DNA of 64,000 bases from Owenia fusiformis (Eukaryota; Annelida; Polychaeta; Sabellida; Oweniidae), in assembly GCA_903813345.2 (NCBI GenBank), contig CAIIXF020000003.1:34769000-34832999 (forward strand), read 5' to 3'. The notes beneath the pieces are model-generated. The model did not search any database, was not told the DNA's origin, and saw only the letters and a program-made list of their open reading frames with translations. Every line of letters begins with the position of its first letter. Within the stretch, counting starts at the first letter, position 1. This document shows, one piece after another, positions 459-53,300 of this stretch. The position numbers and the translations under genes are program-made.

Positions 459-3400
459 GTAAGTTCTAGTATGTTTAGTAAAATATCATTCCAGGGATGT
501 ATCTAGTACTGTTCTAGAAAGCATTTATGTATTATTACCTGTCATTGATGTGGCAAGATAAGCCATTATACATTGACACCATTAAAATCACAACAGTCTG
601 CAAAGATCATCCTCAAGAGACTATGATACATACATTTTCTGTTAATACTTCAGCTTGAAAACCTTTTCATATTATGTTTTTGGTACACTCATATATTTGA
701 GGAATGTTTTCCAAACATATGTTCTAACATGACTTTATTCACGTCTTCTATAAACTGTGAACAAAGTCATTATTTCATCAAGTATTTATTTGTCAGTACA
801 ATACCTGGCTTTCATGTTCGAATCCTAATAGAGACCTCAGATCAGGTATTTATATCAGTAATTGGGCTAGCCACGAAAGCTTTCAAACCCTGAGGTACAG
901 AAATCTTTTGTGGCCAGCCCTGTCAGTATTCATTCTTGGACTTAATACTTAATAAGGTTGGTATTAGTCTTTTGGTTGAAGAAGGTTTTAATGATACATT
1001 TATAGAAGTATGTGTTGACCATTCATTCATGACATTACCATGAATGAAATTTTGTACAAAATTAACTCATTCAAGTCCTTTCTCTTTTAGGTTCTACAAA
1101 GGAACAAATCGCAAGAGAAGTTGGGTTCCAGCGTTACGACACAGCATCTCTTGTCAATATATTCCGCCTGGTTACACCTGATGTTGGCATGCTGATTATT
1201 TCCGCCATTGTATTTGGCATCTCTAAGGGGCTCCTCCCACAACAAGAGAGCCAATCAGAACTCCCAACAATAAGCCGTCAACCCTCAACGAGCAGAAGCC
1301 ACACCATCCTTGGTTACCTGGGAGAATTTTTAATGGTGCTTTTCCTGGCAGCATCTGGGATCGCACTGCCATCTATTCTTAATGGAATTTATTTTTTAAC
1401 ATTCCTTGGTATAGCCACCTGGTGGTCATTTTATAGATCACTAGGACGTGTGTTTGCATACCTGCGCTGTATTCTTCTGGTGTATACTGGACTGCATATG
1501 ACAGTGCTCTATCTCTCACAGTTCCAGACATTCCAACAGAAGGTTCCATATGAAAACCTGTTTGCAAGGTATAATACTGAATATATTGTTTGTAACAGTA
1601 CTTTGTCCATGCTGTCACCCATGATTGGTATTTTACCACATTTTTACAAATCAGTTAAACAAGGAATGATTTCTGGGAGAGCAATGGTGAGCTGAGATCC
1701 AGAAAGGTTTTTTATCAACAACAATTCCGCCATCTTTTTGACAATTATGTAATTTGAGAAATTTCATTAGCAGGAGCAAGTCCTTTATTTGAAGAATCAA
1801 CACTTTTGATAAAGATATGATTGATCAAAATCAAAGCTCTCAGATATTAAAGAGTGACAAATGGGTGATAACTATAACTACCTCAATTATAAATTGCCTT
1901 AAAGATATTTTGAACTCATTTTCATCTTGTTTTCAGAATATTTGGAGTAAGTCCTATAATACAGACAAATTGCGACAGGCCTTGGGAGATAAACTTCCAT
2001 CCAAATGTGAACTGGCCGCACTTTGCCAATCTTGGAGTCATCCTGGTTCTTTACTACATCCTGGCATTTGAGACACGTCGCTGGTGTCACAAACCAGTAA
2101 GTCATCTTGTCAAATTTTTAGATATTTAAATGTTGTGAAAAAGTTGTTAGTTGATATTATTTTGGAACATTGTTGTTTATTTTTACATTCAAAAAGAATA
2201 CAGGTTTAACCCTAAAAATCATACATACATTCTATTAATTTTAACTAATTGTCAAATATATTTCCAACATATCGATATGCTATTTGGTATTACTTGGTTC
2301 AAATTGTTATCCCATCGAACGAAGTTTGGAGGGATATAGGGAACTCCTCCGTCCGTAAAATTCAAGATTGAACCGGGAGAAGAACAAAATATTATACCAA
2401 GGATTCATCTTACAATTAAAATGCATAAACAGCCAATTAAATTTAGATATATCATTGGCTCAAAGAAAAGTTCTGTAAAACCAGCTGCCAAAAAACTGAC
2501 CAAAATTCTTAAACTAGTGCAATATACTAACAAAAGATACTGTGAGAAGATTAAGGATTATACAGGTGCCAATAGGATGTGGATCAGTGACAATAACCAA
2601 AATATGTTAGATAACATTAAAAGTGTAAATTTAAGGAACGGGGCAAGAAACATAGCCTCGTATGATTTCTCTACACTATACACAAAGATTAATCTAACTG
2701 ACATAAAGGAAAAACTGAAATGGGTGATAGATAAAGCCTTCAGAGGAGGAACTAACCAAAAGATAACAGTAGGTGGAGATGAAGCCAAATGGGGTGGAAA
2801 GGCGGATAATAAAAAGGCATATACCAAAGGAGAGTGCAATGATCTAGTGGATTTCATCGTGGATACAGCCTACTTTAAAGCAGGGAAATCAATTCTAAGA
2901 CAGAAAATTGGAATACCGATGGGAATCGATCCGGCGCCATATATGGCAAACCTATACTTATACAGTTATGAATTTCAAGCCATTGAGAAAATGTATAGGG
3001 AAGACTACTCCAAAGTACTAAAATATGCTAAAACTACAAGATTCATCGATGATTTATGTACTATAAACAACGACGGAGAAATGGAGACTGATATGAAGAA
3101 CATCTATCCTGAAGAACTAGTGTTAAACAAGGAAAATGAGAAGGATACAGAAACAACTTTTCTGGACATACAAATGAAAATAGTAAATAAACAAATCACT
3201 ACAAAACTATACGACAAAAGGGAAAACTTCAATTTCCAAATAGTCTCATATCCTGATCTATCTGGAAATATTCCTAGAAACCAATCTTATGGAATATTTA
3301 TATCACAAATAATAAGGATTTCAAGAATCTGCAGTCAACTGGAAGATGCAACAAACAGAGTTACCAGCCTGGGAAATAAACTACAATGTCAAGGCTACAG

Positions 3401-6400
3401 GAGCAACATACTAAATTCGTATACTAAGAAAGCTATAACAAGAAATAAATGGATATGTACTAAATACAATATGCAGGAGAATATCATCATGAAAGACTGG
3501 AAAATTAATGAGAGAAGAGAACATTAACAAATGAATATGAAACAGTATCTTCTCCGCAAAGAGGGTAAACTAAGATGACAAATCAGCATAAGACCAACAG
3601 TAAGGGGAAGGGGAGAGTTTTCCGGCCGGATCAAAACGTTTAACCCACCTATGCGCAGTCTCAAGTCTGTGGACCCTGAAGAAAGATAAGTAACATCGCA
3701 ATCAAATCAAGACAATGAAAGAAGAAAATGAATGAAGAAACCAATGCAGCAACAACAAATGACGTCCGTTTTGTGATATTAGTAGGGGCCAGTGAGATAC
3801 CTAAGGTAAACCTCCTCACTTATAAATTTCACAGTATTGTGTTAAACACATAAGCAGCTAAGAGTTCGCATTCAAAGAAAAGAAGAAACTAGAAGAAGTA
3901 TTAGAAGAAGTGGTGAGAAGTAAAGAAGAAGAAATAGGAAATAAATTATATATCAAAAGCCGCTATAGGCGTAATGGTTCAAACAAGAAGTCAAAAAGCA
4001 GCTGGGGAGCAGCCCTCCCCAATTGTAGCCTCCCCTAGTGTCAAACCAAACTCTAGGAGAAGTAAATGTCTTCGACAGGCTAAAGCTGATGTTGTAGCCC
4101 CCAATAAGGATAACGGAGGTAATTCTGAGGATACAGCAGGAGACTCTACTTCGAATAATCCTGGTAATTTGTCAAAGAAATGCGACAAAAGAGGATGTAA
4201 ACTGTGTAAGTCATATAAAGAAGGAAAATATATTATAGCTAATAACACTGGTAAACAGTATAAAATCAGGACAAACGACCTAAATGAAGTGTCCTGTGAA
4301 ACAAAAAATGTGATCTACTTGGCTACATGTACATCATGCGGAATTCAGTATGTTGGACAAACGGGCCAGACTGTTAAAGCAAGATTCAATGACCACAGAA
4401 GTAGGATTAAAAACAACAAAGGAACAAACAGTATGATCTTTGCGAATCACTTCAATGAAGGCCCATGTAAAGATTCAGAATATAATGTACAAATAATTGA
4501 AAGAGTTCCAATAGAGGATAAGAAAATTAGCAAACTAAGTAAAAAATATGAAATCAAAAAGGCAGCAGACCAAAAACAAAGAGAGGACAAGGAGTCATAC
4601 TGGATAAAGAAATTCCAATGTGTACACCCATACGGATTAAACAACAGACTGGAGAAAAATCTTCAGCAAAGAACAAAAGATGATGTAATATACAACGACT
4701 TTGATAACAAACGGAAGAAGAAAAACAAAAGGCCAAAGGGAAACCACCGTAAAGAAAAGGCATTAAAAGCCAATGACGTATTTGAAACTTTAGTGGAACA
4801 AAGCAATGGAAATGTACTGGCAGGTATGAAAACAATCTTGAGATTAGTCCCACAAATGAAGAAGACAGAATTGAAAAAACTTGGAATGATAAATATAGAA
4901 GATAATGATAGACTACACACACGACTTAAAATTACTCTGGAGGACAGAATCCAATCAAAACTTAGGAAAAACAATGAACTAAAGACCAAGAATAGGAAAA
5001 AGAAACCAACAAAATTCTGTAAAATACTATTTGAAAACAAAGCAGTAGAAGTAATCAACATTGCAAATATCTTAAGAGATGAAGAAGTGATCAAGACAAT
5101 ACCTTCAAGTATCAAAAATAAGGAACCACCAGGAATTGTCTATATATACACAAAGCCAATAAGGAATAAATTGTTCAACTATAGTGAGATTACAGAAAGT
5201 ATCGACGAAGGCAACAATACAGGAGAATGTGATTGTAATACATCTGAATTTAAGGATGAAGACCATGGTCACGTCATAACAGGAAATCTGAAGATTATAC
5301 AAAATTCAAAATTGAGAAAGCTATTTAGTAAAGGTCCTGGCTATAGAGAAAAACGAAATATTAACTTCAGGAAAGCAAAAGAAGAAATAAAGAAAGGAAT
5401 AGATGAATATGCAATAAGTTGGACAAAAAATGAAAAAGTTTCAAAAGTATACTTAAATGAATGGAAAAATACTGTAATGGAAAAGGTTAAACAAAAGATT
5501 GAGTTACTTCAAAATACAAAATTTAGACATATTAAAAATCCAAAGCAGACACTAAAGGACCATAATGCTATGGAAGAACTCAATCAACTCAAGGAAAAAT
5601 ATGCCATTGTACCTATTGATAAGGCAGCAAATAATATTGGGTTTATGTGCAAACAATACTACATAAAGAAGATTAAAGAGGAAATTGGGAGTGACACCTA
5701 TCAAAGGATAGAAGATAAAGGAGAAGAAGATATAGTGGAGGAAATCAAAGAGACAATGAAAACAAAATTCAAGATTGAACCGGGAGAAGAACAAAATATT
5801 ATACCAAGGATTCATCTTACAATTAAAATGCATAAACAGCCAATTAAATTTAGATATATCATTGGCTCAAAGAAAAGTTCTGTAAAACCAGCTGCCAAAA
5901 AACTGACCAAAATTCTTAAACTAGTGCAATATACTAACAAAAGATACTGTGAGAAGATTAAGGATTATACAGGTGCCAATAGGATGTGGATCAGTGACAA
6001 TAACCAAAATATGTTAGATAACATTAAAAGTGTAAATTTAAGGAACGGGGCAAGAAACATAGCCTCGTATGATTTCTCTACACTATACACAAAGATTAAT
6101 CTAACTGACATAAAGGAAAAACTGAAATGGGTGATAGATAAAGCCTTCAGAGGAGGAACTAACCAAAAGATAACAGTAGGTGGAGATGAAGCCAAATGGG
6201 GTGGAAAGGCGGATAATAAAAAGGCATATACCAAAGGAGAGTGCAATGATCTAGTGGATTTCATCGTGGATACAGCCTACTTTAAAGCAGGGAAATCAAT
6301 TCTAAGACAGAAAATTGGAATACCGATGGGAATCGATCCGGCGCCATATATGGCAAACCTATACTTATACAGTTATGAATTTCAAGCCATTGAGAAAATG

Positions 6401-9400
6401 TATAGGGAAGACTACTCCAAAGTACTAAAATATGCTAAAACTACAAGATTCATCGATGATTTATGTACTATAAACAACGACGGAGAAATGGAGACTGATA
6501 TGAAGAACATCTATCCTGAAGAACTAGTGTTAAACAAGGAAAATGAGAAGGATACAGAAACAACTTTTCTGGACATACAAATGAAAATAGTAAATAAACA
6601 AATCACTACAAAACTATACGACAAAAGGGAAAACTTCAATTTCAAATAGTCTCATATCCTGATCTATCTGGAAATATTCCTAGAAACCAATCTTATGGAA
6701 TATTTATATCACAAATAATAAGGATTTCAAGAATCTGCAGTCAACTGGAAGATGCAACAAACAGAGTTACCAGCCTGGGAAATAAACTACAATGTCAAGG
6801 CTACAGGAGCAACATACTAAATTCGTATACTAAGAAAGCTATAACAAGAAATAAATGGATATGTACTAAATACAATATGCAGGAGAATATCATCATGAAA
6901 GACTGGAAAATTAATGAGAGAAGAGAACATTAACAAATGAATATGAAACAGTATCTTCTCCGCAAAGAGGGTAAACTAAGATGACAAATCAGCATAAGAC
7001 CAACAGTAAGGGGAAGGGGAGAGTTTTCCGGCCGGATCAAAACGTTTAACCCACCTATGCGCAGTCTCAAGTCTGTGGACCCTGAAGAAAGATAAGTAAC
7101 ATCGCAATCAAATCAAGACAATGAAAGAAGAAAATGAATGAAGAAACCAATGCAGCAACAACAAATGACGTCCGTACGTCTGTCCGTCTGTCCACCCATC
7201 CGGGCAATAACTCAAATACCATTGGCTCGATTTTGTTCATATTTTGTACACATATACCTTATGGGGATAGAAATTCTGCTTGAAAGCTGATTTTCAAAAT
7301 GGCCGCTTATTTAAAAATGGCGGCCATTTTAGTGCCGATTTTACAGTAATTTAGGTACAATATGTAAAACTGTAATAGCAATACTTGTATGTTTTAAATG
7401 TAAAAAAATTATATAGGACATTAATAAAGCTAGAAATGCAGGTATTAAAGAATTACATGGCAGCCATCTTGAAAAATAGCGGCCTTTACTCGCTATTTTA
7501 CGATTTTTGCTGTAACTCAAAAAGTAGTGGAGCGATTTTGTTCATATTTGGTATGTGAATACTATAAGCATGTCACACTGTCTAATGACACTTTTGGTAG
7601 AAGGCGGCCATTTTTCACCATTTTGAAAGGTAGACTTTTGGTAGAAGGTGGCCATTTTGAAAAATGGCCGCCATTTTTTCTATATACTTTGTTTGTAAAA
7701 ATGCCAGCCATGGCTGTTCGATGGGATTTGCTACGCTTTGGCGTTGCTGTTGTCTAGTTTGATTACTCCTAGTTTTATATGTAGGTGGAAATATCGATTT
7801 CATACTCTTTGTTGGAATTGGCACATGAGGTGTTACAGGTATACACGCACAGTAAGCGTGTGCTCTAACACACATACAATAAGCGTGTGGTCTGATATGC
7901 CATTAATCAGTGTGCCAAATTCAATGCCAAGTTTTTAGCATGTGACCGTTTACCACTACCTGGAATTATCTCAATAAATACATATTAATAAACAAATAGT
8001 TACAGCAGTTTGTAACTGTTTAATCAAACACAACATTCAAGTTTACTTTTTGGGAATTTGGAATTAATTAATGCATTTTGTAGCTTTTTATGTGGAAAAT
8101 TATAATTTTATTGTTTATGTATTATTGCATTTATGATTGCTTTGCATGTATTCTGCTTAATTGCATTTCAGATGAACTTTGTGCATGTCAAGCAAAGTTC
8201 TCGCTATGTGTACAAGGGGCCCTGTGATGAAGTGTCGTCTGCTTCTCTAAGCCAGAATGAGGCAGGCTCTATGACTGTGGTGTGTTGGCACAAACATTTG
8301 TGTTTTTGGCTATGCAATTTCGACATCTTGTTTTTATAATATTTGTAGACCTTATATAGAGTAGAATGGTTTTCAGGCCTGAATAGATGGAATTGTTGGA
8401 TTCTATCATACTTAAACCAATTCATGAAACATTTGTTTACAGTATTCATGTACTGAAATAATTCTTGTCAGCTGTTATCAGCAAGATTATTTGACTTATA
8501 TATTTTAATTCCCCACAGTGGCGATGCACTGTGTAATAGGTAATGCGATTTCAATATGAAGAAAAGAACAAAAAGGCTCATAGCCCAAATTACATGGCCG
8601 CATGTTTTCAACAAAAAAAGCTCATTCAAGTGCACTCACACTCACATAATTCTTTTGAAAGACATCTCAGTTTATTGCAATTGAGTTCCTGTTGCGCACT
8701 AGCAACAAGCAAGCATGGTTGACACGCGGGGAGCTGACATAGGTTGCCACAGCGTAATTAGCGGTTTAAGTGTGCTTGGATTAACTGCTTTTGTTGAAAA
8801 CATGTGAGCATGTAATTTTTTTTAACACATGGGCTCATTGTTCTTTTTCGTGTTACATAGGGGGAATACTTATATATTATGCGCTTGTCAACTGGCAGTT
8901 CAAAAACAATCCCCAAGACTACCTCAAATCACCAGATAATTCATTCTACTTGACTCACCTTAATGAGTCAATTTTTTATTGAAGTTTGACCATTTGAAAT
9001 AACTTTCCAAGGGGTGACACCATGTCTTGTCACTAGTGACTTATTGTCTAGTGACTATTTATTTATTCTAATACAATTTTAACAAATGCACATCATGTTA
9101 GAATCAGCAGTTGCACCATTTTATAGAATGTTAATTTGTATGAATAATACTAATAGTTGCACCATTTTATAGAATGTTAATTTGTATGAATGATACTAAT
9201 AGTTGCACCATTTTATAGAATGTTAATTTGTATGAATGATACTAATAGTTGCACCATTTTATAGAATGTTAATTTGTATGAATGATACTAATAGTTGCAC
9301 CATTTTATAGAATGTTAATTAGTATGAATGATACTAATAGTTGCACCATTTTATAGAATGTTAATTAGTATGAATAATACTAATATGAGTTGAATGTGAA

Positions 9401-24400: not shown

Positions 24401-27400
24401 GTGAAATTCTCTGAAACTTTCTGCACCTACATTGCAGAGCATTATACTGTTATGAAGTTAATACTTGGTTTATTTATCAGATTCTTTATCACCAACCACC
24501 CTCAAATGAAAAAGTTGAAATACAGTAGAGACCTTTAAAGCATTCTTCTACTGCAGAAATTTTCAAATATTTCGAACAGGTTCTTCACTTATGACCATTA
24601 TTGTATTTTGTACAAAATAGATTATGTAGTTCATAATAGTTCATTGTTTTGTGTATAGATGGCATAGCTTATTGTTTCTAGGACAACAGCATGATGTCAT
24701 TGATGGTTATGATGGCGTCCGTGTCAAACAAATAGGTAACTTTTGTTTTTAAAGTGAAATGGACAAATTGTTTTTGGTACTATGTATTTGACAGTTCCTC
24801 CCACAGGTTTTATGGTCTTTTTGATTAATATAAGGACTAAGACTTATTAACTAGTATTTAAATACCAAGTACAGATGTATATTAATACTTATACTTTATT
24901 TATTTATATATTTAGTTTTCAGATATTTCTTATTAATGGAATGGTAAATCTCCACTGATATATTATATCTTATTAGAATCATTGTTTATTTTTTCATAAT
25001 AAGAATTTATTGTTTATATACATTTGGTGTGTGCAATTATTTTTCACTTTATTTGCTTTCTTATGTTGTGCAATGTGTTATGTGTGAAATACAAATGGGT
25101 TTCAGAATTCTACATTTTAATATTGAATATTACAATACTTTAATGTGTATTGTCAGAGACATTCATAACTCCCACTAATACATCAGCATTTAAGATAATC
25201 CTTGGGAAAGTCTTCAAAACAAGATGCTCAAGGGTGAACATTTAGAACTCTAAAGCAAAACATAAAGAAATTAAGACTGACCTGTTCGCTGACTCAACAG
25301 AACAAGAGCACTCAACAAATAATCAGAGTTCCAATACTTTCCACACCAGCCCTTGTTACAAAAAGATCTTCCTTCAACAGTAATTGCTACATTCAAAATA
25401 AAAAATCTGACTTAATAGAGCATTTTATTAAAATTTCTTGCAGGTGGTTGGATGTGGGATGTCCTGTCTAAATACTGGATCATAGCGTGTGGCTTGATGC
25501 TATTACTTATGGCCCTTCAGGATGTTGTCATCTACAGGATCATCTACATGATCTTTTTCCTCTACTTTATACTCACCTTCCAGGTGTGTACCATCAGGGA
25601 TCAGGTTGTATAAAACCCCAATAATTATGCCACTTACTGCCCGAGTCATGTTGGGCCATAGCTACAGATTCATTCCAAAAACTGAAAAACTCATGTGAAT
25701 GATACTTGCAAGTTTAACTTTCTTTTAATTGTACTCATAAAAGATTGTAAGAAAACTGACTCCAAACGTTGCAAATATGTAAAATAAAAAGCTGGGCGAA
25801 CACATCTATGTTTACAAAAAACAACATTTTATTTTGCAATACATCCAAAATAATGTATTTTGCAGTTATGCTATGGCTTCTGGAGGATGAGCATGAAGGT
25901 CTTCTGGTGGGTTTTGATAGTCTACTCCATGTTTATACTGTGCATAGTCTACACTTATCAGTTTGACCAGTTCCCCCAATATTGGCACAACAGTACTGGA
26001 TTATCTATGGAAGTGTAAGTGCATTGAACATATTAATAGTATGCAATTTTGGATCTGCAGGGTTGTCACAATCAGGGAGAAGTTAAATGTAAGTCAAAAA
26101 TGGCTATATGGTCATATCAGGAAAAGGTCAGGTGCTTTTAAGTAAGTGAAATTTTGAAAATCTGCTACCAATCATTGTCATGGTTAACTTTCTTTGTTAT
26201 AGTTTGTTTTAGTACACTTGACAGCAATATCATTGCCACGTTTAAATTTCTTTTTATAGTTTGTCTGACATTGGCCTTAGTACACTTGACAGCAATATCA
26301 TTGTCATGCTTAACTCTCTTTGTTATAGTTTGTCTTAGTACACTTGACAGCAATATCATTGTCATGTTTAACTCTCTTTGTTATAGTTTGTCTTAGTACA
26401 CTTGACAGCAATATCATTGTCATGCTTAACTCTCTTTGTTATAGTTTCTCTTAGTACACTTGACAGCAATATCATTGTCATGTTTAACTTTCTTTTTATA
26501 GTTTGTCTTAGTACACTTGACAGCAATATCATTGTCATGCTTAACTCTCTTTGTTATAGTTTGTCTTAGTACACTTGACAGCAATATCATTGTCATGTTT
26601 AACTTTCTTTGTTATAGTTTGTCTTAGTACACTTGACAGCAATATCATTGTCATGCTTAACTCTCTTTGTTATAGTTTGTCTTAGTACACTTGACAGCAA
26701 TATCATTGTCATGTTTAACTTTCTTTGTGATTGTTTGTCTTAGTACACTTGACAGCAATATCATTGTCATGTTTAACTTTCTTTGTTATAGTTTGTCTAA
26801 GTACACTTGACAGCAATATCATTGTCATGCTTAACTCTCTTTGTTATAGTTTGTCTTAGTACACTTGACAGCAATATCATTGTCATGTTTAACTTTCTTT
26901 GTTATAGTTTGTCTTAGTACACTTGACAGCAATATCATTGTCATGCTTAACTCTCTTTGTTATAGTTTGTCTTAGTACACTTGACAGCAATATCATTGTC
27001 ATGCTTAACTCTCTTTGTTATAGTTTGTCTTAGTACACTTGACAGCAATATCATTGTCATGTTTAACTTTCTTTGTTATAGTTTGTCTTAGTACACTTGA
27101 CAGCAATATCATTGTCATGCTTAACTCTCTTTGTTATAGTTTGTCTTAGTACACTTGACAGCAATATCATTGTCATGTTTAACTTTCTTTGTTATAGTTT
27201 GTCTTAGTACACTTGACAGCAATATCATTGTCATGCTTAACTCTCTTTGTTATAGTTTGTCTTAGTACACTTGACAGCAATATCATTGTCATGTTTAACT
27301 TTCTTTGTTATAGTTTGTCTTAGTACACTTGACAGCAATATCATTGTCATGTTTAACTTTCTTTGTTATAGTTTGTCTTAGTACATTTGACAGCAATATC

Positions 27401-29363
27401 ATTGTCATGCTTAACTCTCTTTGTTATAGTTTGTCTTAGTACACTTGACAGCAATATCATTGTCATGTTTAACTTTCTTTGTTATAGTTTGTCTTAGTAC
27501 ACTTGACAGCAATATCATTGTCATGCTTAACTCTCTTTGTTATAGTTTGTCTTAGTACACTTGACAGCAATATCATTGTCATGTTTAACTTTCTTTGTTA
27601 TAGTTTGTCTTAGTACACTTGACAGCAATATCATTGTCATGCTTAACTCTCTTTGTTATAGTTTGTCTTAGTACACTTGACAGCAATATCATTGTCATGT
27701 TTAACTTTCTTTGTTATAGTTTGTCTTAGTACACTTGACAGCAATATCATTGTCATGCTTAACTCTCTTTGTTATAGTTTGTCTTAGTACACTTGACAGT
27801 AATATCATTGTCATGTTTAACTTTCTTTGTTATAGTTTGTCTTTGTACATTTGACAGCAATATCATTGTCATGTTTAACTTTCTTTGTTATAGTTTGTCT
27901 TAGTACATTTTACAGCAATATCATTGTCATGCTTAACTCTCTTTGTTATAGTTTGTCTTAGTACACTTGACAGCAATATCATTGTCATGCTTAACTCTTT
28001 TTGTTATAGTTTGTCTTAGTACACTTGACAGCAATATCATTGTCATGTTTAACTTTCTTTGTTATAGTTTGTCTTAGTACACTTGACAGCAATATCATTG
28101 TCATGTTTAACTTTCTTTGTTATAGTTTGTCTAAGTACACTTGACAGCAATATCATTGTCTTGCTTAACTCTCTTTGTTATAGTTTGTCTTAGTACACTT
28201 GACAGCAATATCATTGTCATGTTTAACTTACTTTTTTATAGTTTGTCTTAGTACACTTGACAGCAATATCATTGTCATGTTTAACTTTCTTTGTTATTGT
28301 TTGTCTTAGTTCACTTGACAGCTATATCATTGTCATGCTTAACTCTCTTTGTTATAGTTTGTCTAAGTATACTTGACAGCAATATCATTGTCATGCTTAA
28401 CTCTCTTTGTTATAGTTTGTCTTAGTACACTTGACAGCAATATCATTGTCATGTTTAACTTTCTTTGTTATAGTTTGTCTTAGTACACTTGACAGCAATA
28501 TCATTGTCATGTTTAACTTTCTTTGTTATAGTTTGTCTAAGTACACTTGACAGCAATATCATTGTCTTGCTTAACTCTCTTTGTTATAGTTTGTCTTAGT
28601 ACACTTGACAGCAATATCATTGTCATGTTTAACTTACTTTTTTATAGTTTGTCTTAGTACACTTGACAGCAATATCATTGTCATGTTTAACTTTCTTTGT
28701 TATTGTTTGTCTTAGTTCACTTGACAGCTATATCATTGTCATGCTTAACTCTCTTTGTTATAGTTTGTCTTAGTACACTTGACAGCAATATCATTGTCAT
28801 GTTTAACTTTCTTTGTGATTGTTTGTCTTAGTACACTTGACAGCAATATCATTGTCATGTTTAACTCTCTTTGTTATAGTTTGTCTTAGTACACTTGACA
28901 GCAATATCATTGTCATGTTTAACTTTCTTTGTTATAGTTTGTCTGACATTGGCCTCAGTACACTTGACACTGGTACCCTCTTCCTCCAGCTTCTGACTCC
29001 GACAGCTTTCATAATAGTCGTCATTATACAAGTCCACTACTTCCACATACCATTCCTGAACATGAGCGCCATAGATAGATACAGGTATTGTATTGAATTG
29101 TTATTGTATTTTGTTTACCACCAGAGAAGGTGAGCAATACCCACTCAGCTGAAGTGTTAAGCTGCTACCGTTAAGCTTTATCCTTCCAGCTGTTCAAAAT
29201 CAAAAAAAAAAGTCAAACCTGTTTTGTGTACTTCAAACAGGTTCTAGTTTAAGATAACATTATGTAAAGAGCGATACATGTATGGTTTCTCATCAATGCT
29301 TTAAAACTACCATACATTGACATTTAAATACATGTGATACATGTTTCTGAATGGATCATCTTT

Positions 29364-29395
<32 letters not shown>

Positions 29396-32300
29396 CCTTC
29401 ATTCTTACTTATGTACATGTAAATATAAATATGTACATGTTAATGTAATGCAATTAATAATATAAATAAAATTTACATAGACAAAAAAATACACTTATAG
29501 TTATGTTGTAAATGTATGTTGACTAAATGAATGTTGAATAAAATTGCAATTGTTGTTGATTGTTGATTGATAAAAGAATGAGTAAGAATAAAGTGTATTT
29601 AAAACCAATGCAAGGGGTGTGCTTTCATATCCTATTTTGATGCTGTTTACTATATGTTGTAAAGGGATCTACAATGTTTTTATTTACTGCTTGAATATCT
29701 TTTGAGCAGTTTTCCATGCTTTGTCATGGGCTTCTAACTTGTTATTCTTCTCTGCATTGCTTCTGCTTATGATTTCCTGGGCTTCAACATATTTCTTGAG
29801 GCCTGTCATATTTGGTGGTTTATTGTCTAATTTGTTGAGATAGATGTAGTGTTTAACCAAGAGTAGCGTCAGGTTTTCTCCCAAACTGGTGTTCTCTCCT
29901 AGGAAGTATTTTGCTCTTGTCAGGTTTTGTATTTGACACAGTTGGGTGACCATCTCTATGAATGGTTTGACAGCTATACATTCGTATAGTCCATGTTCGA
30001 TGGTATCCTGTTTGTCTTCTTTACACAATTCACATTGTGGGCTTGTTTTGATTTTCATATTGTGTAGCATTTTGTTGAAAAATATTGTTCGAAGTAATAT
30101 TCTATATTGGAAATATCTCAGTTTTGTTTCCTTTGTTGTTATGTATATTCTACAGTAGTTGCTTTTCCAGTTTATATTTGTGTTGTCTATCGCCTTTTCC
30201 CATAGTTGTTGTTGTTTTATTGGTTCTTCAGTGTGGCTTTTTATTAGTATGTTATATGTATCCTTATTCGTCATTGTTTGTAGTTCCTTTATAGAAATGG
30301 ATTTTTCTTTCACATCAGTTGCTGTCTCGGTCCTTCTCGGTGTTTTTATTTGGTTTCTCCATTCAGCTGGTATGCTGTGTATGATGTGGTACCATTGAAT
30401 GAATGTTGTGTTTATTAAATCAAATTTCCTTTTCAGTGCTTGGTACGGGATTAATTGATTGTCCTCATACAACTGTTTGATATATATTATCCCTTTGGAT
30501 TTCCACCCCTCTATATATAAGGTCTCTCTTCTATTTTGCACATGTCTATTGTTCCAAATTATCTGGTTTTCGGGTGTATGGATGTCCTTGTACTCCTTAT
30601 AATGTATTGCACACCATGCATTGTATACGTCCCTTGCTTCTGTAAGTTTGATGTTGCTGGCAATCATCGGATTGATTTCTCTGAGGTTGTATTCCCATGC
30701 ATGTTCTCTGATATCTTCAAACTGCTGTTGCCAGAGTATTTTCCACTTACTTTTTATGTTGTCGTCCGTTAATTTTTTAATCCATTTGAGTTTTAATTTA
30801 TTAGCAAGTGATGGAATATGCGTCATTTCAAGACCTCCATAAGGTATTCCCCCTCTTAATGTTTTTCTTGCTATTTTGTCCGGTTTTCCGTCCCATATAA
30901 AATCAAATAGTATTCTTTCTAGTTCTTTGGTCATTTCAGCTGTTGGTGCTTTTAACACTGACATTGGATATGTTAACTGTGATAAAAGTAGTGACTTTAT
31001 AACCACGATTTTACCCATCAGGGATAGATTTCTTTGCTTCCATATTTGTGCTAATCTTAGTATAGTCCTGATTGGTTTGCTATAGTTGATTTCTTCTATG
31101 TTTCTTCCATCTATCGGTATTGTTAAGCCTAGGAGGTTAATCTCCCTTTCTTCTAGATTCACTCCAATATTTGTGCATATTCTCTGTGTCTTTTTTTTGT
31201 TTATCTGGTTGTCTTTTCCAATGGTAACTACTGTTGTCTTTTCTTTATTGATTTTAAGTCCTGATATCATCTCAAATTTATTAAAAAGATCTAGTGCATT
31301 TTCTAAATATGAGGCGTCTTTAAGGAACAAGCAGGTATCATCTGCATATTGCGAGATTCTGAGTTCTTCGTTTTCTGTTAGATTGATACCTTTTATTTTG
31401 TCTGTCTTCCGTGTAGCATTGCTAAGAACTTCTGCACATAGGATGAATATGTAAGGACTCAATGGGCAGCCTTGTCGTACACCTCTTTCAAGGTTGAAGT
31501 ACCTGGATGTGAAGCCATTGTTTATTATAGTGCTGTTTATTCCATTGTAGAAAGTTTCAACCCAGGCTATTAAGTCTGTGCCAAAATTAAAATACTTCAA
31601 GGTTTTATAGATGAATTTCCACTCCAATGAGTCGAATGCCTTTTGGAAGTCGATAGTTGCCATAATGCCATTCTTTCCTTGTTGAGTCAAGTGTTCCATT
31701 ACATCTAGTGATAGTCTTATGTTCTCACCTATGTATCTGTTTGATATAAATCCTGTCTGGTCTACGTTGATAAGTTTGTAAAGAACTTTTTTAATGCGTT
31801 CTGCTATGGCCTTTGTCATTATTTTGTAGTCGTTGTTAAGTAGGGTTATGGGTCTCCAGTTCTTTATTTTGTTCGGATCTTTACCTTTTTTGGGTATTAG
31901 AGTAATTATTCCTCTTTTTTGTTCTATCGTCATGTCTTTGTTATTTTTTGAGTAGTTGAAGCTTGCACACATTGGGTCTATGATGTCATCTACAAATGTT
32001 TTATAAAATTCACTGGAGAGTCCATCGCTTCCTGGGGTTTTGTTGTTCTTGAGGTTTGAAATTTGTTTTCTGCATTCATCTGCTGTTATATGCCCTTCAC
32101 AATTTTGTTTTTCATCTTTGTTTAGTTCCAGGTTTTCTCCTTTTGGGAAAAAGTCTTTATCAAATTTAGTTGTTTCTACAATTCTTGTTTTATATAATTC
32201 ACTGTAAAACTTTGCTTGTTCCTCACTTATTTGTTTTTGGTCTGTTATTAGGACGCCTTCTTCATCTTCAATGGCTGTCATGGTTTTGTTTATGTAATTG

Positions 32301-35300
32301 TGTTTTTCAAGATTTAGGAAGTATCTTGTTGGCTTTTCTCCTTCATCTACCCATTGACATTTACTTCTAAAGATAGCGCTTTTAGCCTTCTCTTCTTGCA
32401 TTAAGTCTATTTTGTTCCTTATTTTTTCAGCTCTGTCTGTTAACTTCTGTCTTTCTGGATCGGCGAGTGATTTATTGTTTTCCTGATGTTCAATCATAAT
32501 TACTTGGCCAATTTTAATATCTAGTTCTTGTTTTTTCTTCCTCTTTTTCTCTGTTGCGTAGCGTCTTGTCTCCATTTTAATGTTAAATTTGATTAATTCC
32601 CATAAACTATTTGGGTTGAGGTTTTCATTGTTCTGCTTTACATTGTTGATTATTACTTTTATGCTTTCTACATATTCTTTGTCTTTGAGTAATGTGTTGT
32701 TAAGTTTCCAGATGCCCGGTCCCCTCCTCTGGTTTAATAATTTGAGTTCAAGTTTTACTGGTCTATGGTCAGCAATTTTCCTTTTCACCATCGTTTCATT
32801 TAGAATCTCTGTATTCTTTGTTTGTTGGTAGATGTCTCTAGTTACTAGAAAATAGTCTAGTCTACATTTAATTGTGTTGTCGTGATTGTTCCAAGTGTAT
32901 TTTCTACTGTGTGGATGTTTTTGTCGCCATACATCGCATAGGTCGTGTTCCTCTATCATATTTGTAATAAGCGCCCTTGTTTTGATAAGCTTGTCTTCCA
33001 CCTTCTTTGTCCTTTGATATATCTAATGGGACATTGAAATCTCCTCCAATAATGATTGAGTTTTCATTTTTGTCTCTTAGTTTTTCTTTAATATTTTGAA
33101 ATAGATTGCTGTCGTCATGGTTGTGGCCGTAAACATTTACCAGTGTAATGAGTTTGCCTTTTAAGAGGCAGTCCATGATGATGAATCTCCCGTCTTTGTC
33201 GATATCACAGTTTATGATTTCAGGGTTAGGAATACATTTTTTGTTTATTAATGTTGCTACTCCAACTGAATTTGTAGCTGTAGTTGTGAAGTAGGCTTCT
33301 CCTCCCCATTGTTGCTTCCAGTTCTTGTCTTGCCCTTTTCCGCAGTGCGTTTCTTGTAAGAATGCGATGTCAAAATTATCTTCTTGTATATATGTAAATA
33401 TTTTTTTACGTTTGACCTTGTCCTGTAGACCCTTTACATTAACTGATACTATTCTAATTGACATTTATACAGATTTGTTATGTTACCCTTGCATTGGTTT
33501 ATACATTTAATTATTATTTTAATTGAAATAAATTTTGCTGAAATCTTATATAAAGAATGTTGCTCGTAGAGCGTATTGGGATGATAGTGGAATTCTACCA
33601 TCTCAATAAGAGGTCGAGATAAAAGCTTTAGGAGTGCGTTGAACTTACATTAAAGAGGCAGGTTTAAATAAATTCTTACTGTTTGATTCTAACTCAAAAG
33701 TTGTTGAGAATTTGATTTGCTGTACGCTAAAAAAAAAAATAGTTGCGTAAATTGAATAAAAGTTCAGTCTTAACTAATGTCTATTTTGATCTGCAAGGGT
33801 AAAGAATTATTTTTTGTTCAATCTCTTTGTGATGATTTCTTTGTATATATCGTCCATATTTACTGGATTGCCGTCAATATATACTCTAACCCCTACCCAC
33901 TTGACCTTCTTTCTTTGTTGTTTGGCCTCTTTTGTATATAATTTGTAGGCTAGGTTTTGAATTGCACGGGCATCTTCAGGTAGGTCTTCTCCAATTCTCA
34001 CATTGCTTTTTGCTTTCTTGGACCAGACTAGCCTTTTAATCGCATTCGCTTCCTTTTCCGATTCGAATTGTATTAGTACGGGTCTTGGTCTCTGTGATTT
34101 TCCTCCTTGTACGCTGGTAGTGGTAGGCCGCCCGATGCGATAGCAATTTTGAACTGTGGTGTGAGCTCCCTCGTTGAGCTGCTGAAGACGTGATTCAACA
34201 GCTTCTTTTAGATCGGTGTTCTCTTGATTTTCCGGTAGGTCAAACATTATTAGGTTTCTTTTCTTGTTGATAATATCGAGCTCTATGTCTCTGATAAATA
34301 ACTCTCTTACGAAACGTAGTTCTTCCGGTTTTTCGAGTTGTGTTTCAATTTTGTCCAGTTTTTTTTCGGAGCTTTCAATTCGGGCCTCGAGCTTTTGGTT
34401 GATTTCATCCACTTTTCGGTCAGTTTTTCTCAATTGCTCGAATAATTCGTCGAATTTAGGGTCCATAGGTGATGGGCTAGCTCTTAATTTGCGGTATGGA
34501 GGTAGAATTTTGGAGACCATGCTAGTTACATCCTAATTTGTAATTCTCACCACAATTTGGCAATAATTAAGCAAAATTTTACAGCGTTTAGGAAAAAATC
34601 AATATTTATACCCCCCACATGACAAAAGTAGGGGGTACATAGAAAATAATTAATAACTTTACAAAAACATTATGAATAACCACATTTTTTTCAGAATATG
34701 TGCACATATATGTCATTAATAACTGGTAAAAAATTGGTGACTATAGGTATGATGGTTGCTATGGAAACAGAATGTGATTGTCAAAATTTGCTAATTTGTG
34801 TCTATTTTGGGGGCTCGTTAACGAAAAAATGCTATGTAGGCAAGATATGCTGCAAAAATACCATTGATTTAAGGTTTAGAAAATTGCATATATATGTCCT
34901 GCATGCATTAAAATTGGAATGATGATTGAGTCTCAATCAGAAATATTTTTAAAATTTTTTTCTATGACCCACCCCTTCTAAATAATCCAAAGTGGGCTTG
35001 GCATTTAAGTGAATGATCAAGCCTACTTAACAGTAGATAACTTCAATTGTATAGCCTGTATTATCACAATTTCAACAGAATGTAGGATTCTGGTATCAGT
35101 TAACAGTTTATATGATTTTGTTCATCCCCCTCAATATTTATAACCCCTCCTTCGTCACCACCACCCCTCCCGCGTGACAAAAGTAGGGGGTACCTTGAAA
35201 ATGATTAATAACTTTACAACAATGCAGCGAATAACCATCAATTTTTCAGACAGGATAAATGTATATGTCATCAGTAATTGAAAAAATTCTTGGTAATTAT

Positions 35301-41300: not shown

Positions 41301-44300
41301 ATCTCTTGTATTTTTGACAATGATTGAAATGAACTTCACAGAATAAGTAAATACTAGTTTATCATTGTAGAAAATATCTTATTATTGAGAAAATGTCTTT
41401 GTCATCACAGGAAATGTCCTTGTCATTAAAATATCAGGAATGGGAGTCAAATAGGAATCATGGTTCTATGGGGAGTATTGATTTGTTCATTCTCATTATT
41501 TGTATTTTGGTCAAGTTTTGATTGTACATACATGTACTTGTATATTCATGTTTTTAGATCTGTGCGCTGAACTTTGTGTTTGTCGTCTTCCTGATTGTGC
41601 TACTACCTGTTCCAAAGTTGAATGCAGCTTTGCCTCATTTTGTCCAAATATGGGCGGGTATTGTTATACTTGCCAAAATGATATATCAATTGAGCATCGT
41701 AAAGCGTGACTATTGGTATTCAAATTGTACGGTAAGTTGATGAAGAATCACATTTGTATTAGTCAAATAAAATATTGAATTTCATTGTTTTAATGAAAAA
41801 TACAAAACTGTTGAGAAGTGTGAGCTTCAGCCTCTCTGGTTTTGTGGCTTTCCGGAAAAAGTGTGTTTATTTTGATTATTATTAATTATAATTAATAATG
41901 AATTTAATGATTATTTCATGATTGATGTCTTCTTGTTTCAGAGTGTATCATATGATCAGGGTATCTTCTTGTTTCAGAGTGTATCATATGATCAGGGTAT
42001 CTTCTTGTTTCAGAGTGTATCATATGATCAGGGTATCTTCTTGTTTCAGAGTGTATCATATGATCAGGGTATCTTCTTGTTTCAGAGTGTATCATATGAT
42101 CAGGGTATCTTCTTGTTTCAGAGTGTATCATACGATCAGGGTATCTTCTTGTTTCAGAGTGTATCATACGATCAGGGTATCTTCTTGTTTCAGAGTGTAT
42201 CATACAATCAGGGTATCTTCTTGTTTCAGAGTGTATCATACGATCAGGGTATCTTCTTGTTTCAGAGTGTATCATATGATCAGGGTATCTTCTTGTTTCA
42301 GAGTGTATCATATGATCAGGGTATCCCTCCTCCATTTAACTCTACAGCTAACAATGCTAATTGGTTTGGACTTGTGAAAACTGACAATATCTCACATTAT
42401 CTGAGGGTAAGTTAAATCATGTATTGAGGTTTACCAACATGTATATCTTGACTGATAAGCAAGCCGCAAACATTGTGAATTTAATTAATACAGTTATGCA
42501 CATGAACTAGTAAATCCTTGTAGCTATGAAAACAAATTGAGGGTAAAAGAGATAAATACAGGATGTAGTCAATTTTTAAAATAATGTTTTTATCAACCTG
42601 CTTTATTTAATAAATTATTTCTCACTGAGAATGAGTTGAATATTCATTGACACATTATTCCATTTTGATGTCACAATAATTGCTGCTGTGTTATCCTATA
42701 TGCTGACATGTTATCCTATATGCTGATATGTTATCCTATATGCCGATATGTTATCCTATATGCCGATATGTTATCCTATATGCTGATATGTTATCCTATA
42801 TGCCGATATGTTATCCTATATGCCGATATGTTATCCTATATGCCGATATGTTATCCTATATGCCGATATGTTATCCTATATGCTGATATGTTATCCTATA
42901 TGCCGATATGTTATCCTATATGCCGATATGTTATCCTATATGCTGATATGTTATCCTATATGTCGATATGTTATCCTATATGCCGATATGTTATCCTATA
43001 TGCTGATATGTTATCCTATATGCCGATATGTTATCCTATATGCCGATATGTTATCCTATATGCTGATATGTTATAGAACCACATAGCTCTGGTTGCTCTC
43101 ATCATATTCCAAGCAATAGTGAAAGTACACCAAGCCCAGTACTACATGAGACCAAACAAGACACCTCCAGAAACTAAGTACCCTGGAAAAATCTTCCCAG
43201 AGATTAGGCGTCAACATGCAGACGAGGGCTTGTTAAATTGTGCAAAGTTTTTACTCAATTTTGGATTCTACAAATATGGACTTGAGGTAAATTGAAATAC
43301 CAACACAAAATAGACTCATCCTGTGTATGGACACACTTAGTGAGAAACTTGCAAATCAAAACTGTTAATGTCACAGATTTCAAAATGATGTTTTTGTTAT
43401 ATGAACATAGCATCACAATAGTCTACAAGTAAAAAAAAACTCATACATTAGTTTGCTAATATATATTTTCCTTTTCAAAAAATTAGTCAATAAAATATAT
43501 TTTTACTTCAACTTTCAGCTCTGTTACACAATGACTGTCATCACTATTTGTGTGCGTCAAGATGCATTCGCTGTTCTCTATGGACTACTTCTTGGCATAT
43601 TACTACTCCTCAACCGAAGAGCTTCATATATACTCTGGCCTATTTACGCCATATTCTTGGCAATATTAATCCCAATACAGTATTTATCTTGCCTTGGCTT
43701 CCCATTGGTGCTTTGCTGGGGATATCCGTGGGATGAAGTGGCTGAGTTCAAGAGAAATCTTGCTTGGTGGATGTTTCTTCCAGATTACATCCACCCTCCT
43801 GATCATAATAAACTTGTTGGTATGTTTATTTTTTTACTTTAACTGAATCAAACATAGAATCCATAAGCATAGAGGGTGGTCCAAAAAGTGAACCCCTGCA
43901 ACAGGCTATATTTTCCTTAATACTTGCATGAATAGACTCATATTATCACATGTTGTAGAGAAAGGTCTAAAATTTTAGTTGATGCCATAATTTATTCTCA
44001 GTCTTAAATTTTGAAGAAATTACAAGAGTTTAACAAACATGCCTGAAAATTAGATATTGTACAAAATTTTACCAATGCGATTCACGGAAATTGTTGAAAC
44101 ACATTGGATGATCATCAACAGCTTTCAGTCAGTGATACAAGTTTAAATCCCTACCATATGACAAAAGGGACACTATTTAAGCAGAAAACACATTTCACAC
44201 TTTCATTGATCATTTTGAAACAGTTTTAACCGTTCAACAGTTCAGGGGTATGTTACCTTCACAAACAGTTAGAGGAGGGCCTCTTGTGGAAGGAAGTTGC

Positions 44301-50300: not shown

Positions 50301-53300
50301 ACAAGAATCAAGCTAAAACAGGAAGCCATGCAGCAGAAGGCAGTTATGGAACCAACAGATCATTATATAGGTGGGTTGTTTATTAGCTGCCATAATGAAA
50401 TATATTTAATATAATTATATAGGTGGGTTGTATATTAGCTACCATAATGTTGCACTGACATTGTACTTGGAAAAGGAAAATGAATTGCAGTCTACGTATA
50501 GTCTCGTATAGTGTTATGATATGTCTATGTAGAAAGGTCACACTGTTTTATTTACTCTATTTGGATAGAATGACTTCACATTTCCATATCAAGAGTGAAC
50601 TTGATGTGTCAATGCTGGGATAAAGGAGGATTGGTGTATCCCACAATTCCATTAAATTTACCCTTGGCGTGTCCCACAATTCCATTGAATTTACCCTTGG
50701 TGTGTCCCACAATTCCATTAAATTTACCCTTGGCGTGTCCCACAATTCCATTGAATTTACCCTTGGTGTATCCAACAATTCCATTGAATTTACCCTTGGT
50801 GTGTCCCACAATTCCATTGAATTTACCCTTGGTGTATCCCACAATTCCATTGAATTTACCCTTGGTGTATCCCACAATTCCATTGAATATACCCTTGGTG
50901 TGTCCCACAATTCCATTGAATTTACCCTTGGTGTATCCCACAATTCCATTGAATTTACCCTTGGTGTATCCAACAATTCCATTGAATTTACCCTTGGTGT
51001 ATCCCACAATTCCATTGAATTTACCCTTGGTGTATCCCACAATTCCATTGAATATACCCTTGGTGTGTCCCACAATTCCATTGAATTTACCCTTGGTGTA
51101 TCCAACAATTCCATTGAATTTACCCTTGGTGTGTCCCACAATTCCATTGAATTTACCCTTGGTGTATCCCACAATTCCATTGAATTTACCCTTGGTGTGT
51201 CCCACAATTCCATTGAATTTACCCTTGGTGTATCCCACAATTCCATTGAATTTACCCTTGGTGTATCCCACAATTCCATTGAATTTACCCTTGGTGTGTC
51301 CCACAATTCCATTGAATTTACCCTTGGTGTGTCCCACAATTCCATTGAATTTACCCTTGGTATATCCCACAATTCCATTGAATTTACCCTTGGTATGTCC
51401 CACAATTCCATTGAATTTACCCTTGGCGTGTCCCACAATTCCATTGAATTTACCCTTGGTGTATCCCACAATTCCATTGAATTTACCCTTGGTGTGTCCC
51501 ACAATTCCATTGAATTTACCCTTGGTGTATCCCACAATTCCATTGAATTTACCCTTGGTGCGTCCCACAATTCCATTGAATTTACCCTTGGTGTGTCCCA
51601 CAATTCCATTGAATTTACCTCTCATTATGTCTTTTTTACCAGAAAATTATACAAAAAGAAACAATGGCTAGAGTTACACAGGAGGTCTAATTTCTTAGTT
51701 GTAAAGCATTTTGTCAATGAAGCTTTGTATCAAATGATTTTTGAGGTGTAACTCAGGTTCGGACTTTCACTAGTGGAGGGCATTTCTACTGAAAGGAGCG
51801 TTTTCAGTATGTTATCCTACACTTAGTGTGCTAAATGTATAATAACAGTAAAAAATATATTTGATATCTATTGACAAAATGAATAAACTGAGGATAATGC
51901 CACGATATACTCCGGAAAACCAATATGCGGAGGATATCGTGACGATATACTCCAGAAAACCAATATGCCGAGGATATCGTGATAGGTGATAGTTAATTTG
52001 AAATACCCTGAATTTCATGTAGTAGAAGGAGGTTGCAGTACATATGTATACATGTTTATTTTATATAAAGGGTGGTTGCAATACATATTCCTTGTATACA
52101 TACCAAATATTACATTCTATTGAGGTGAATACATGTTCATCTTTCCCTCAGTATATTTCCCGCAGCCCGAAGGGCAAGGGAAATATACCTGAGGGAAAGA
52201 TGAACATTTATTTACCGAAAATAGAATGGAATATTTGATTTATTATATCATTTTAATTTTCTACAAATTATGTGTATTTTTTAGAACTATTTAAACACAT
52301 AAATAGGCTACAATACATGTGCTCATTAGAATAACCAAGATACATGTACAGCCACTTAGTCCGATGCAAGATATTGCCTTCTTTCATCCTTAAAAGTCGC
52401 ACGTGCAAGATGTCTTGTGACATCACTGGTTTATAAACATCAACAAAGTGGCAACGGACACAGAATTGCTATGAGTACCAATGCTCATTGCTCATACTAC
52501 AAACATAAGCTTTGACGTCATAACAATGAAGTTTTGTTGCCTGCGTATCCAAGTATTTTCTACAATATTGTTGTGACGTCATAACAAAGGCATAACATCC
52601 GGGACTTTCTACCGTGGTATATACTCCGTGGTATATACACCGTGGTATATACAGTTGAAAACGAGGCTGCAGCTGGAGATTGCAGGAAACAATGAAATAC
52701 ACCCTAATATTTTTAATCATGTGATCGGTTCTTATCCAATGAGAAAGCGAGAAACATTTCAATGATATAATAAATGCTAATATATCCATGATAATTTTAT
52801 ATAAAGGGTAGTTGCAATACATATTCCTTGTATACATGTTAATATATACATGTTAATTTTATATAAAGGGTGGTTGCAATACATATTCCTTGTATACATG
52901 TTTATTTTGTATAAAGGGTGGTTGCAATACATATTCCTTGTATACATGTTAATATATACAATATAGGCATTCCTCCCAGTTAAATATCCTTTAGAAGACT
53001 ATTCAGTATCAGTGTTTATTTTCCTCTCCTAAAAACCTGTATAAGTGGAACACTTTTCATTCCTGAAAAATAGTGCTTTCCTTTAAACCTTATTTTGATA
53101 TAGAGGTTCATTTTGTATTAAGTTAATGATAGCAGGACTTAGAAACATGTTTATCACCTGGAGGTGCCTCCCTGACAGAGGTCTTCCGCTTTACAGGTTT
53201 TACTGTTCAAAAATTCACATTAATTTGGAGCTGTGAATTGGAACAGCTTAACCTTTAGATGATCCTTTGGGATTAAGTAATATTATATTTTATTTTGTAA

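Follow-up and report, generated by a model that had tools for sequence, protein, structure and literature searches.

What becomes of a minisatellite that repeats a splice acceptor inside a gene: is it read into the protein, or removed with the intron? The question is raised by a stretch of 64,000 nucleotides from the annelid Owenia fusiformis (the window), in which a tandem repeat of 36 bp lies across the start of an exon of a Piezo gene. The original prediction described eleven in-frame splice acceptors, the first of which would add 120 residues to the channel and the others progressively fewer. We assessed here the gene, the repeat, the strength of the competing acceptors and the company that the repeat keeps in the window.

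The 36-bp array and the Piezo gene that carries it

By homology, the gene is a Piezo mechanosensitive channel, as had been proposed. Of ten ORFs scanned with Pfam, four gave PF24871 or PF15917 (Piezo_TM1-24 or Piezo_TM25-28) above the cut-off, a fifth gave a sub-threshold Piezo hit and four gave no hit of any kind; the array-bearing ORF had no Piezo hit in Pfam, its four sub-threshold hits being to unrelated families. The region of exons I-J-K-L-M, with exon K in its short form, matched solved Piezo2 and Piezo1 chains (best E 1.6e-41), and another comparison with solved Piezo chains reached a best E of 8.2e-33. In all, 18 acceptors and 17 donors of the gene were placed by inspection of ORFs and splice motifs. 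The resulting exon list is very probably incomplete, for example between positions 1568 and 20905. The features around the array are as follows (a slash within a motif marks the splice junction):

41558 to 41731, plus strand: exon J (exon 15 of the original prediction), ending in ...YWYSNCT, with the phase 0 donor TACG/gtaagt (splice mapping, Piezo1/2 homology)
41930 to 42325, plus strand: 36-bp minisatellite of 11 units (TRF and unit listing)
42302 to 42406, plus strand: exon K, short form (exon 16 of the original prediction), SVSYDQGIPPPFNSTANNANWFGLVKTDNISHYLR, with the donor CTGAGG/gtaagt (aligned to Piezo1/2 NCT...NWFG)
43077 to 43286, plus strand: exon L (exon 17 of the original prediction; ORF and splice mapping)

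The array is real and had been described accurately. TRF reports it at 41928-42325 (period 36, 11.1 copies, 98% matches, score 761), and the units, cut at 41930, read TTCTTGTTTCAGAGTGTATCATATGATCAGGGTATC. Each was said to join 12 intron bases to the first 24 bases of the exon. The 36 bp do span the boundary (TTCTTGTTTCAG/AGTGTATCATATGATCAGGGTATC), with an edge that is ambiguous by 2 bp (TC), so that 12-14 nt of the unit belong to the end of the intron and 22-24 nt to the start of the exon. The acceptor TTTCAG/AGT is kept in 11 of 11 copies, with no indels, placing the possible first exon bases at 41942 + 36n, the last being 42302. All eleven acceptors are in phase 0 and open as far as the donor at 42406, and they are identical to one another over at least 14 nt. 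Every unit also contains a weak in-frame AG (GATCAG/GGT) and an out-of-frame AG (CAGAG/TG), both of which scored below 0. Units 1-5, 10 and 11 are identical; TAC replaces TAT in units 6-9, a synonymous change, and unit 8 has in addition AAT for GAT (Asp to Asn), in agreement with the differences first listed. Among the first ten units only two of the 36 columns vary, a number that leaves a selection test on the unit differences without power.

The array thus spans an intron/exon boundary and carries splice signals in every copy, two of the features by which lancelet "mirages" are recognized. Judged from its sequence, it is a minisatellite duplication of this type in an animal Piezo gene. It sits between the NCT and NWFG segments, both seen in the alignment to the Piezo1/2 chains; since NCT is common to these chains, the insert would indeed adjoin a conserved site. 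Vertebrate chains and this gene also have NCT-NWFG stretches of unequal length. With the short form of exon K as the only query, the solved chains showed no insertion of about 120 residues at NCT...NWFG.

Signals for a choice among eleven acceptors

The usual rule is that the first suitable AG downstream of the branch point is used. Acceptors were scored with a weight matrix built from the 17 other mapped Piezo acceptors (themselves scored leave-one-out), and branch-point candidates were counted as YTNAY at 12-50 nt from the acceptor without an intervening AG. The intron end in question is:

41890 to 41941, plus strand: intron end before the array, with four YTNAY candidates followed by TTCTTGTTTCAG (branch-point scan)

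The first site scored 12.95 and each of the other ten 5.03, a value inside the range of the 17 other acceptors (0.94 to 12.38, median 7.8). All four YTNAY candidates (at 17, 24, 35 and 47 nt, counted from 41942) serve site 1 without an intervening AG, and none was found for sites 2-11; by comparison, 11 of the 17 other mapped acceptors and 20% of some 2000 random AGs had at least one such candidate. The lack of YTNAY is not fatal to an acceptor, since six of the 17 have none free of an intervening AG (five have no YTNAY at all). At sites 2 and 11, the two checked for the relaxed motif NTNAY, the only candidates were ATCAT and ATGAT, each separated from the acceptor by an AG. The preceding AG lies 80 nt from site 1 and 18 nt from each of sites 2-11.

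In light of these signals, we consider it probable, on balance, that the first acceptor is the one mainly used, such that the 120-residue insert is included, its length follows the repeat number, and the later acceptors are at most minor. The sequence of events could have been the following. A tandem duplication would have copied 12-14 nt of intron end together with the exon start, and slippage or unequal exchange would then have expanded the 36-bp array. The original branch point would have stayed upstream, leaving the first acceptor with a complete 3' splice site and providing the ten others with just a pyrimidine tract and AG. Because the tract and AG were copied and the branch point was left behind, the first-AG rule predicts that the first acceptor should dominate and that the array should be exonic: the spliceosome would mainly use the first AG after the branch point (41942), the mRNA would keep the remainder of the array as coding sequence, and about 120 residues would be added to the Piezo loop that follows NCT. 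The length of the insert would vary with the germline, and possibly somatic, repeat number, with the later acceptors contributing little.

The proposal that the insert is tuned in length by acceptor choice finds no backing in these data. Acceptors 2-11 lack a consensus branch point of their own and are far weaker in score than the first, so that a single acceptor should be favoured in splicing, and variation in length would come through repeat number instead. An adaptive length tuner is therefore unsupported, apart from the likely variation in repeat number.

All 10 extra units are open, and the period is divisible by 3. That every copy is in frame had been pointed out; the observation stands, and its weight is small, for the probability of such openness by chance is about 0.16 (1/3 for a period divisible by 3, multiplied by 0.49, the fraction of sampled 36-mers of the window that are open in one given frame). 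The open frame thus shifts the odds towards a coding array by a modest factor, about six, and is not a proof. Exon K would measure 465 nt from the first acceptor and 105 nt from the last; exon A has 478 nt, so that 465 nt is not unusual for this gene. Small introns within the array, using the repeat-borne GT (CAGG/GTATCT) as donor, were considered and put aside after inspection: the consensus is weak and the phase is mismatched to the phase 0 acceptors.

The segment that would be added is:

41942 to 42301, plus strand: candidate coding insert, ten copies of SVSYDQGIFLFQ, one unit with Asn for Asp (present if the first acceptor is used)

Computed from the frame, use of the first acceptor adds ten 12-mers, or 120 residues, as had been stated. 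The predicted insert contains nine Asp and no Lys or Arg (net charge -9). It brings no additional N-glycosylation sequon, and none of its 19-residue windows reaches the hydrophobicity of a membrane helix (maximum 0.95). AlphaFold2, run on the 155-residue long exon alone as a single sequence, returned an all-beta model with a mean pLDDT of 87.1, for which no match in the PDB was found at E 0.001 or better (best E 0.035, TM-score 0.18). Single-sequence models of exact repeats can be over-confident, and for this reason the model was not used as evidence. Most simply, the insert can be read as an insertion that is tolerated in a loop whose length varies, and we claim no function for it.

A second boundary array and the rival readings

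The same gene contains another, larger array of this kind, at exon G:

26194 to 28944, plus strand: 58-bp array repeating the exon G acceptor (TRF and acceptor listing)
28938 to 29084, plus strand: exon G (LSDIGLSTLDTGTLF...), from the last acceptor of the 58-bp array (splice mapping; gapless F-G match to Piezo1)

The TRF row begins at 26276, and earlier, degenerate copies extend from near 26194. The array holds 44 TATAG/TTT acceptors and four further copies with TG instead of AG. In the phase of the upstream exon, 43 of the 44 acceptors meet a stop within their first 27 codons and only the last (28938) is open, a contrast with the 36-bp array that speaks for inclusion of the latter. The product of this last acceptor aligns to Piezo1 with no gap at the F-G junction, and the sequence points to use of the last acceptor here. 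YTNAY candidates without an intervening AG accompany 43 of the 44 acceptors. The copy at 26260 keeps a longer exon start, TTTGTCTGACATTGG, found elsewhere in the window solely at the true exon G, and this speaks for the array having arisen as a copy of the exon G boundary; the other listed copies, including the very first (26203), are without these extra bases. The 58-bp array is a possible source of stop-carrying transcripts, and it implies that the making of Piezo needs dozens of decoy acceptors to be skipped, whatever happens at the 36-bp array.

The 58-bp array bears directly on the most serious alternative for exon K, namely that the last acceptor (42302) is used there too, exon definition from the donor at 42406 picking the shortest exon, so that the 36-bp array is spliced out as intron, the protein is short and the ten extra acceptors are silent decoys. 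Last-acceptor use is what an open product requires at the 58-bp array, and this would count against inclusion of the 36-bp array; the short form, moreover, matches the solved Piezo chains, in which no large insert is present at this site. A further argument comes from lancelets, where the mirages of globin, Adh and TnC reportedly leave splicing undisturbed and the authors argue likewise for PGBD5, a precedent that would favour the last acceptor. The two Piezo arrays are not equivalent, however, as the copies of the 58-bp array own branch-point candidates (43 of 44), whereas 42302 lacks a consensus branch point, is preceded by an AG at only 18 nt and scores well below the first site. We regard this alternative as rather unlikely.

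Still less probable is the use of several acceptors to produce a ladder of in-frame Piezo isoforms in 12-residue steps. The identity of the eleven acceptors over at least 14 nt, their common open frame, and downstream scores within the range of the gene's mapped acceptors would all permit it, but one acceptor is clearly the strongest and is the sole one with consensus branch points; sites 2-11 are equal in score with nearly identical local sequence, and nothing was seen in the sequence by which a cell could choose among them. Finally, an error of assembly, in copy number or in the array itself, is barely credible: arrays of near-identical units are hard to assemble, and one lancelet mirage was reported to be aberrantly assembled in a draft genome (PMC3087553), but the units here differ block-wise (TAC in 6-9, AAT in 8), as expected of a real array, and many further arrays with other periods occur in the window.

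Returning to first-acceptor use, a wider proposal can be put forward tentatively, and with less confidence: Piezo may carry a repeat domain of about 120 residues, possibly beta-rich, beside NCT, its length set by a fast-changing germline repeat, while the branch-point-bearing 58-bp array is spliced out. If this is true, whether a boundary minisatellite ends up as protein or as intron would be decided by its content of branch points.

Arrays of three or more copies, after merging, number 21 in the window and account for 17% of its bases. One more of them touches a mapped boundary:

42689 to 43074, plus strand: 20-bp array of 19.3 copies, reaching the acceptor AG of exon L and confined to the intron side (TRF)

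The last ~385 bases of the intron before exon L are therefore minisatellite, including any branch point and tract located there, and the previous AG is more than 200 nt upstream. An enrichment of arrays at splice boundaries was looked for and not found: of the 21 merged arrays, three come within 10 bp of a mapped boundary, compared to a circular-shift mean of 3.19 (P 0.62). Exact boundary-spanning duplications (at least 17 nt, within 3 kb) occur at three of the 35 mapped boundaries, taking the last-acceptor position for exon K, compared to 16% of 600 random positions. With 3 arrays at mapped boundaries where 3.2 are expected, there is no enrichment, and the boundary arrays appear to be by-products of a repeat-rich genome and not of a targeting process.

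Other repeats and elements were recorded in the window. The exon Q donor, as assigned, falls within a duplication of two copies (50362-50431; spacing 52 bp, 34 of 40 nt identical, 18 nt of them exact), which gives two identical donor motifs. A 33-bp array of 30 copies (50631-51619) begins 261 bp past this donor and is presumably intronic; it has long open frames on both strands (345-375 codons), and the two frames scanned had no Pfam match. A LINE-like retroelement ORF (29687-33022, minus strand; RVT_1 and zf-RVT) lies between mapped Piezo exons. A 903-codon open frame (3938-6646), which may be a Penelope-type element, had no Pfam match at E 0.001. It has a partial, nearly identical second copy at 2340-3524 (1115 shared 30-mers between about 5764 and 6906).

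Comparison with known systems

The architecture is not unique to this locus: mirages of the same kind occur in lancelets, and the same Piezo gene has the second, larger array, readable only from its last acceptor. In the lancelet (Branchiostoma), two reports describe mirages as minisatellite-like tandem repeats spanning exon/intron boundaries, in the genes Adh3, globin BflGb6/BflGb9, TnC and PGBD5 (PMC3087553, PMC3902484). Units are 10-72 bp in Adh3 and 150-160 bp in BflGb6, the latter with 6 and 3 copies in two haplotypes, and RT-PCR suggests regular splicing (PMC3087553); TnC and PGBD5 were added later, normal splicing of PGBD5 being the authors' argument (PMC3902484). Splice signals are reported in many, not all, of the copies, and copy number varies between haplotypes (BflGb6) or assemblies (PGBD5). 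The 36-bp array of Piezo resembles these mirages as a tandem duplication of a boundary with splice signals in its copies. Its unit measures 36 bp, against the 150-160 bp of BflGb6, and contains no consensus branch point; every copy keeps the reading frame and is open. For the lancelet copies, splicing is reported or argued to be undisturbed; inclusion is the outcome that the sequence leads us to expect for the Piezo array.

Tandem duplication is also a described route of intron gain, with examples in potato, in fission yeast (24-bp repeats) and in vertebrate ATP2A1 (PMC4974935). There too, a duplicated stretch with splice signals changes gene structure, and the potato copy came from an intron-exon structure; as described, it contained a putative branch site together with a tract and a 3' splice site, and it gave rise to a new intron. 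In the Piezo array, unlike potato, no good new donor was seen and a new intron is not expected. In human PIEZO1, the e756del allele, called gain-of-function, lies at a locus with short tandem repeats (PMC7643131). Both cases involve repeat-associated length variation in a Piezo coding region; e756del is, judged by its name, a deletion of one residue, and the change predicted here is a 12-residue unit repeated ten times at the start of an exon. Minisatellites vary in a mollusc as well, an abalone gene having an intronic 27-bp array of variable copy number (PMC6905558); the accessible portion of a study on gastropod haemocyanin introns (PMC7931591) contains nothing on boundary arrays. Among the matches listed in the literature search, no paper concerned a splice-site minisatellite in Piezo.

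The 36-bp array is thus a further example of a known architecture, the mirage, in an important gene. If it is translated, the length of a loop in a mechanosensor could change quickly between individuals. Boundary minisatellites are a test, set up by nature, of how one of several identical acceptors is picked by the spliceosome, and this one Piezo gene combines two opposite arrays: one of 36 bp that is in frame and lacks a consensus branch point, and one of 58 bp that has a branch-point candidate and meets a stop after every intact acceptor except the last. The two make opposite predictions and could separate the rule of the first AG after the branch point from exon definition. The main value of the locus lies in this pair of contrasting arrays.
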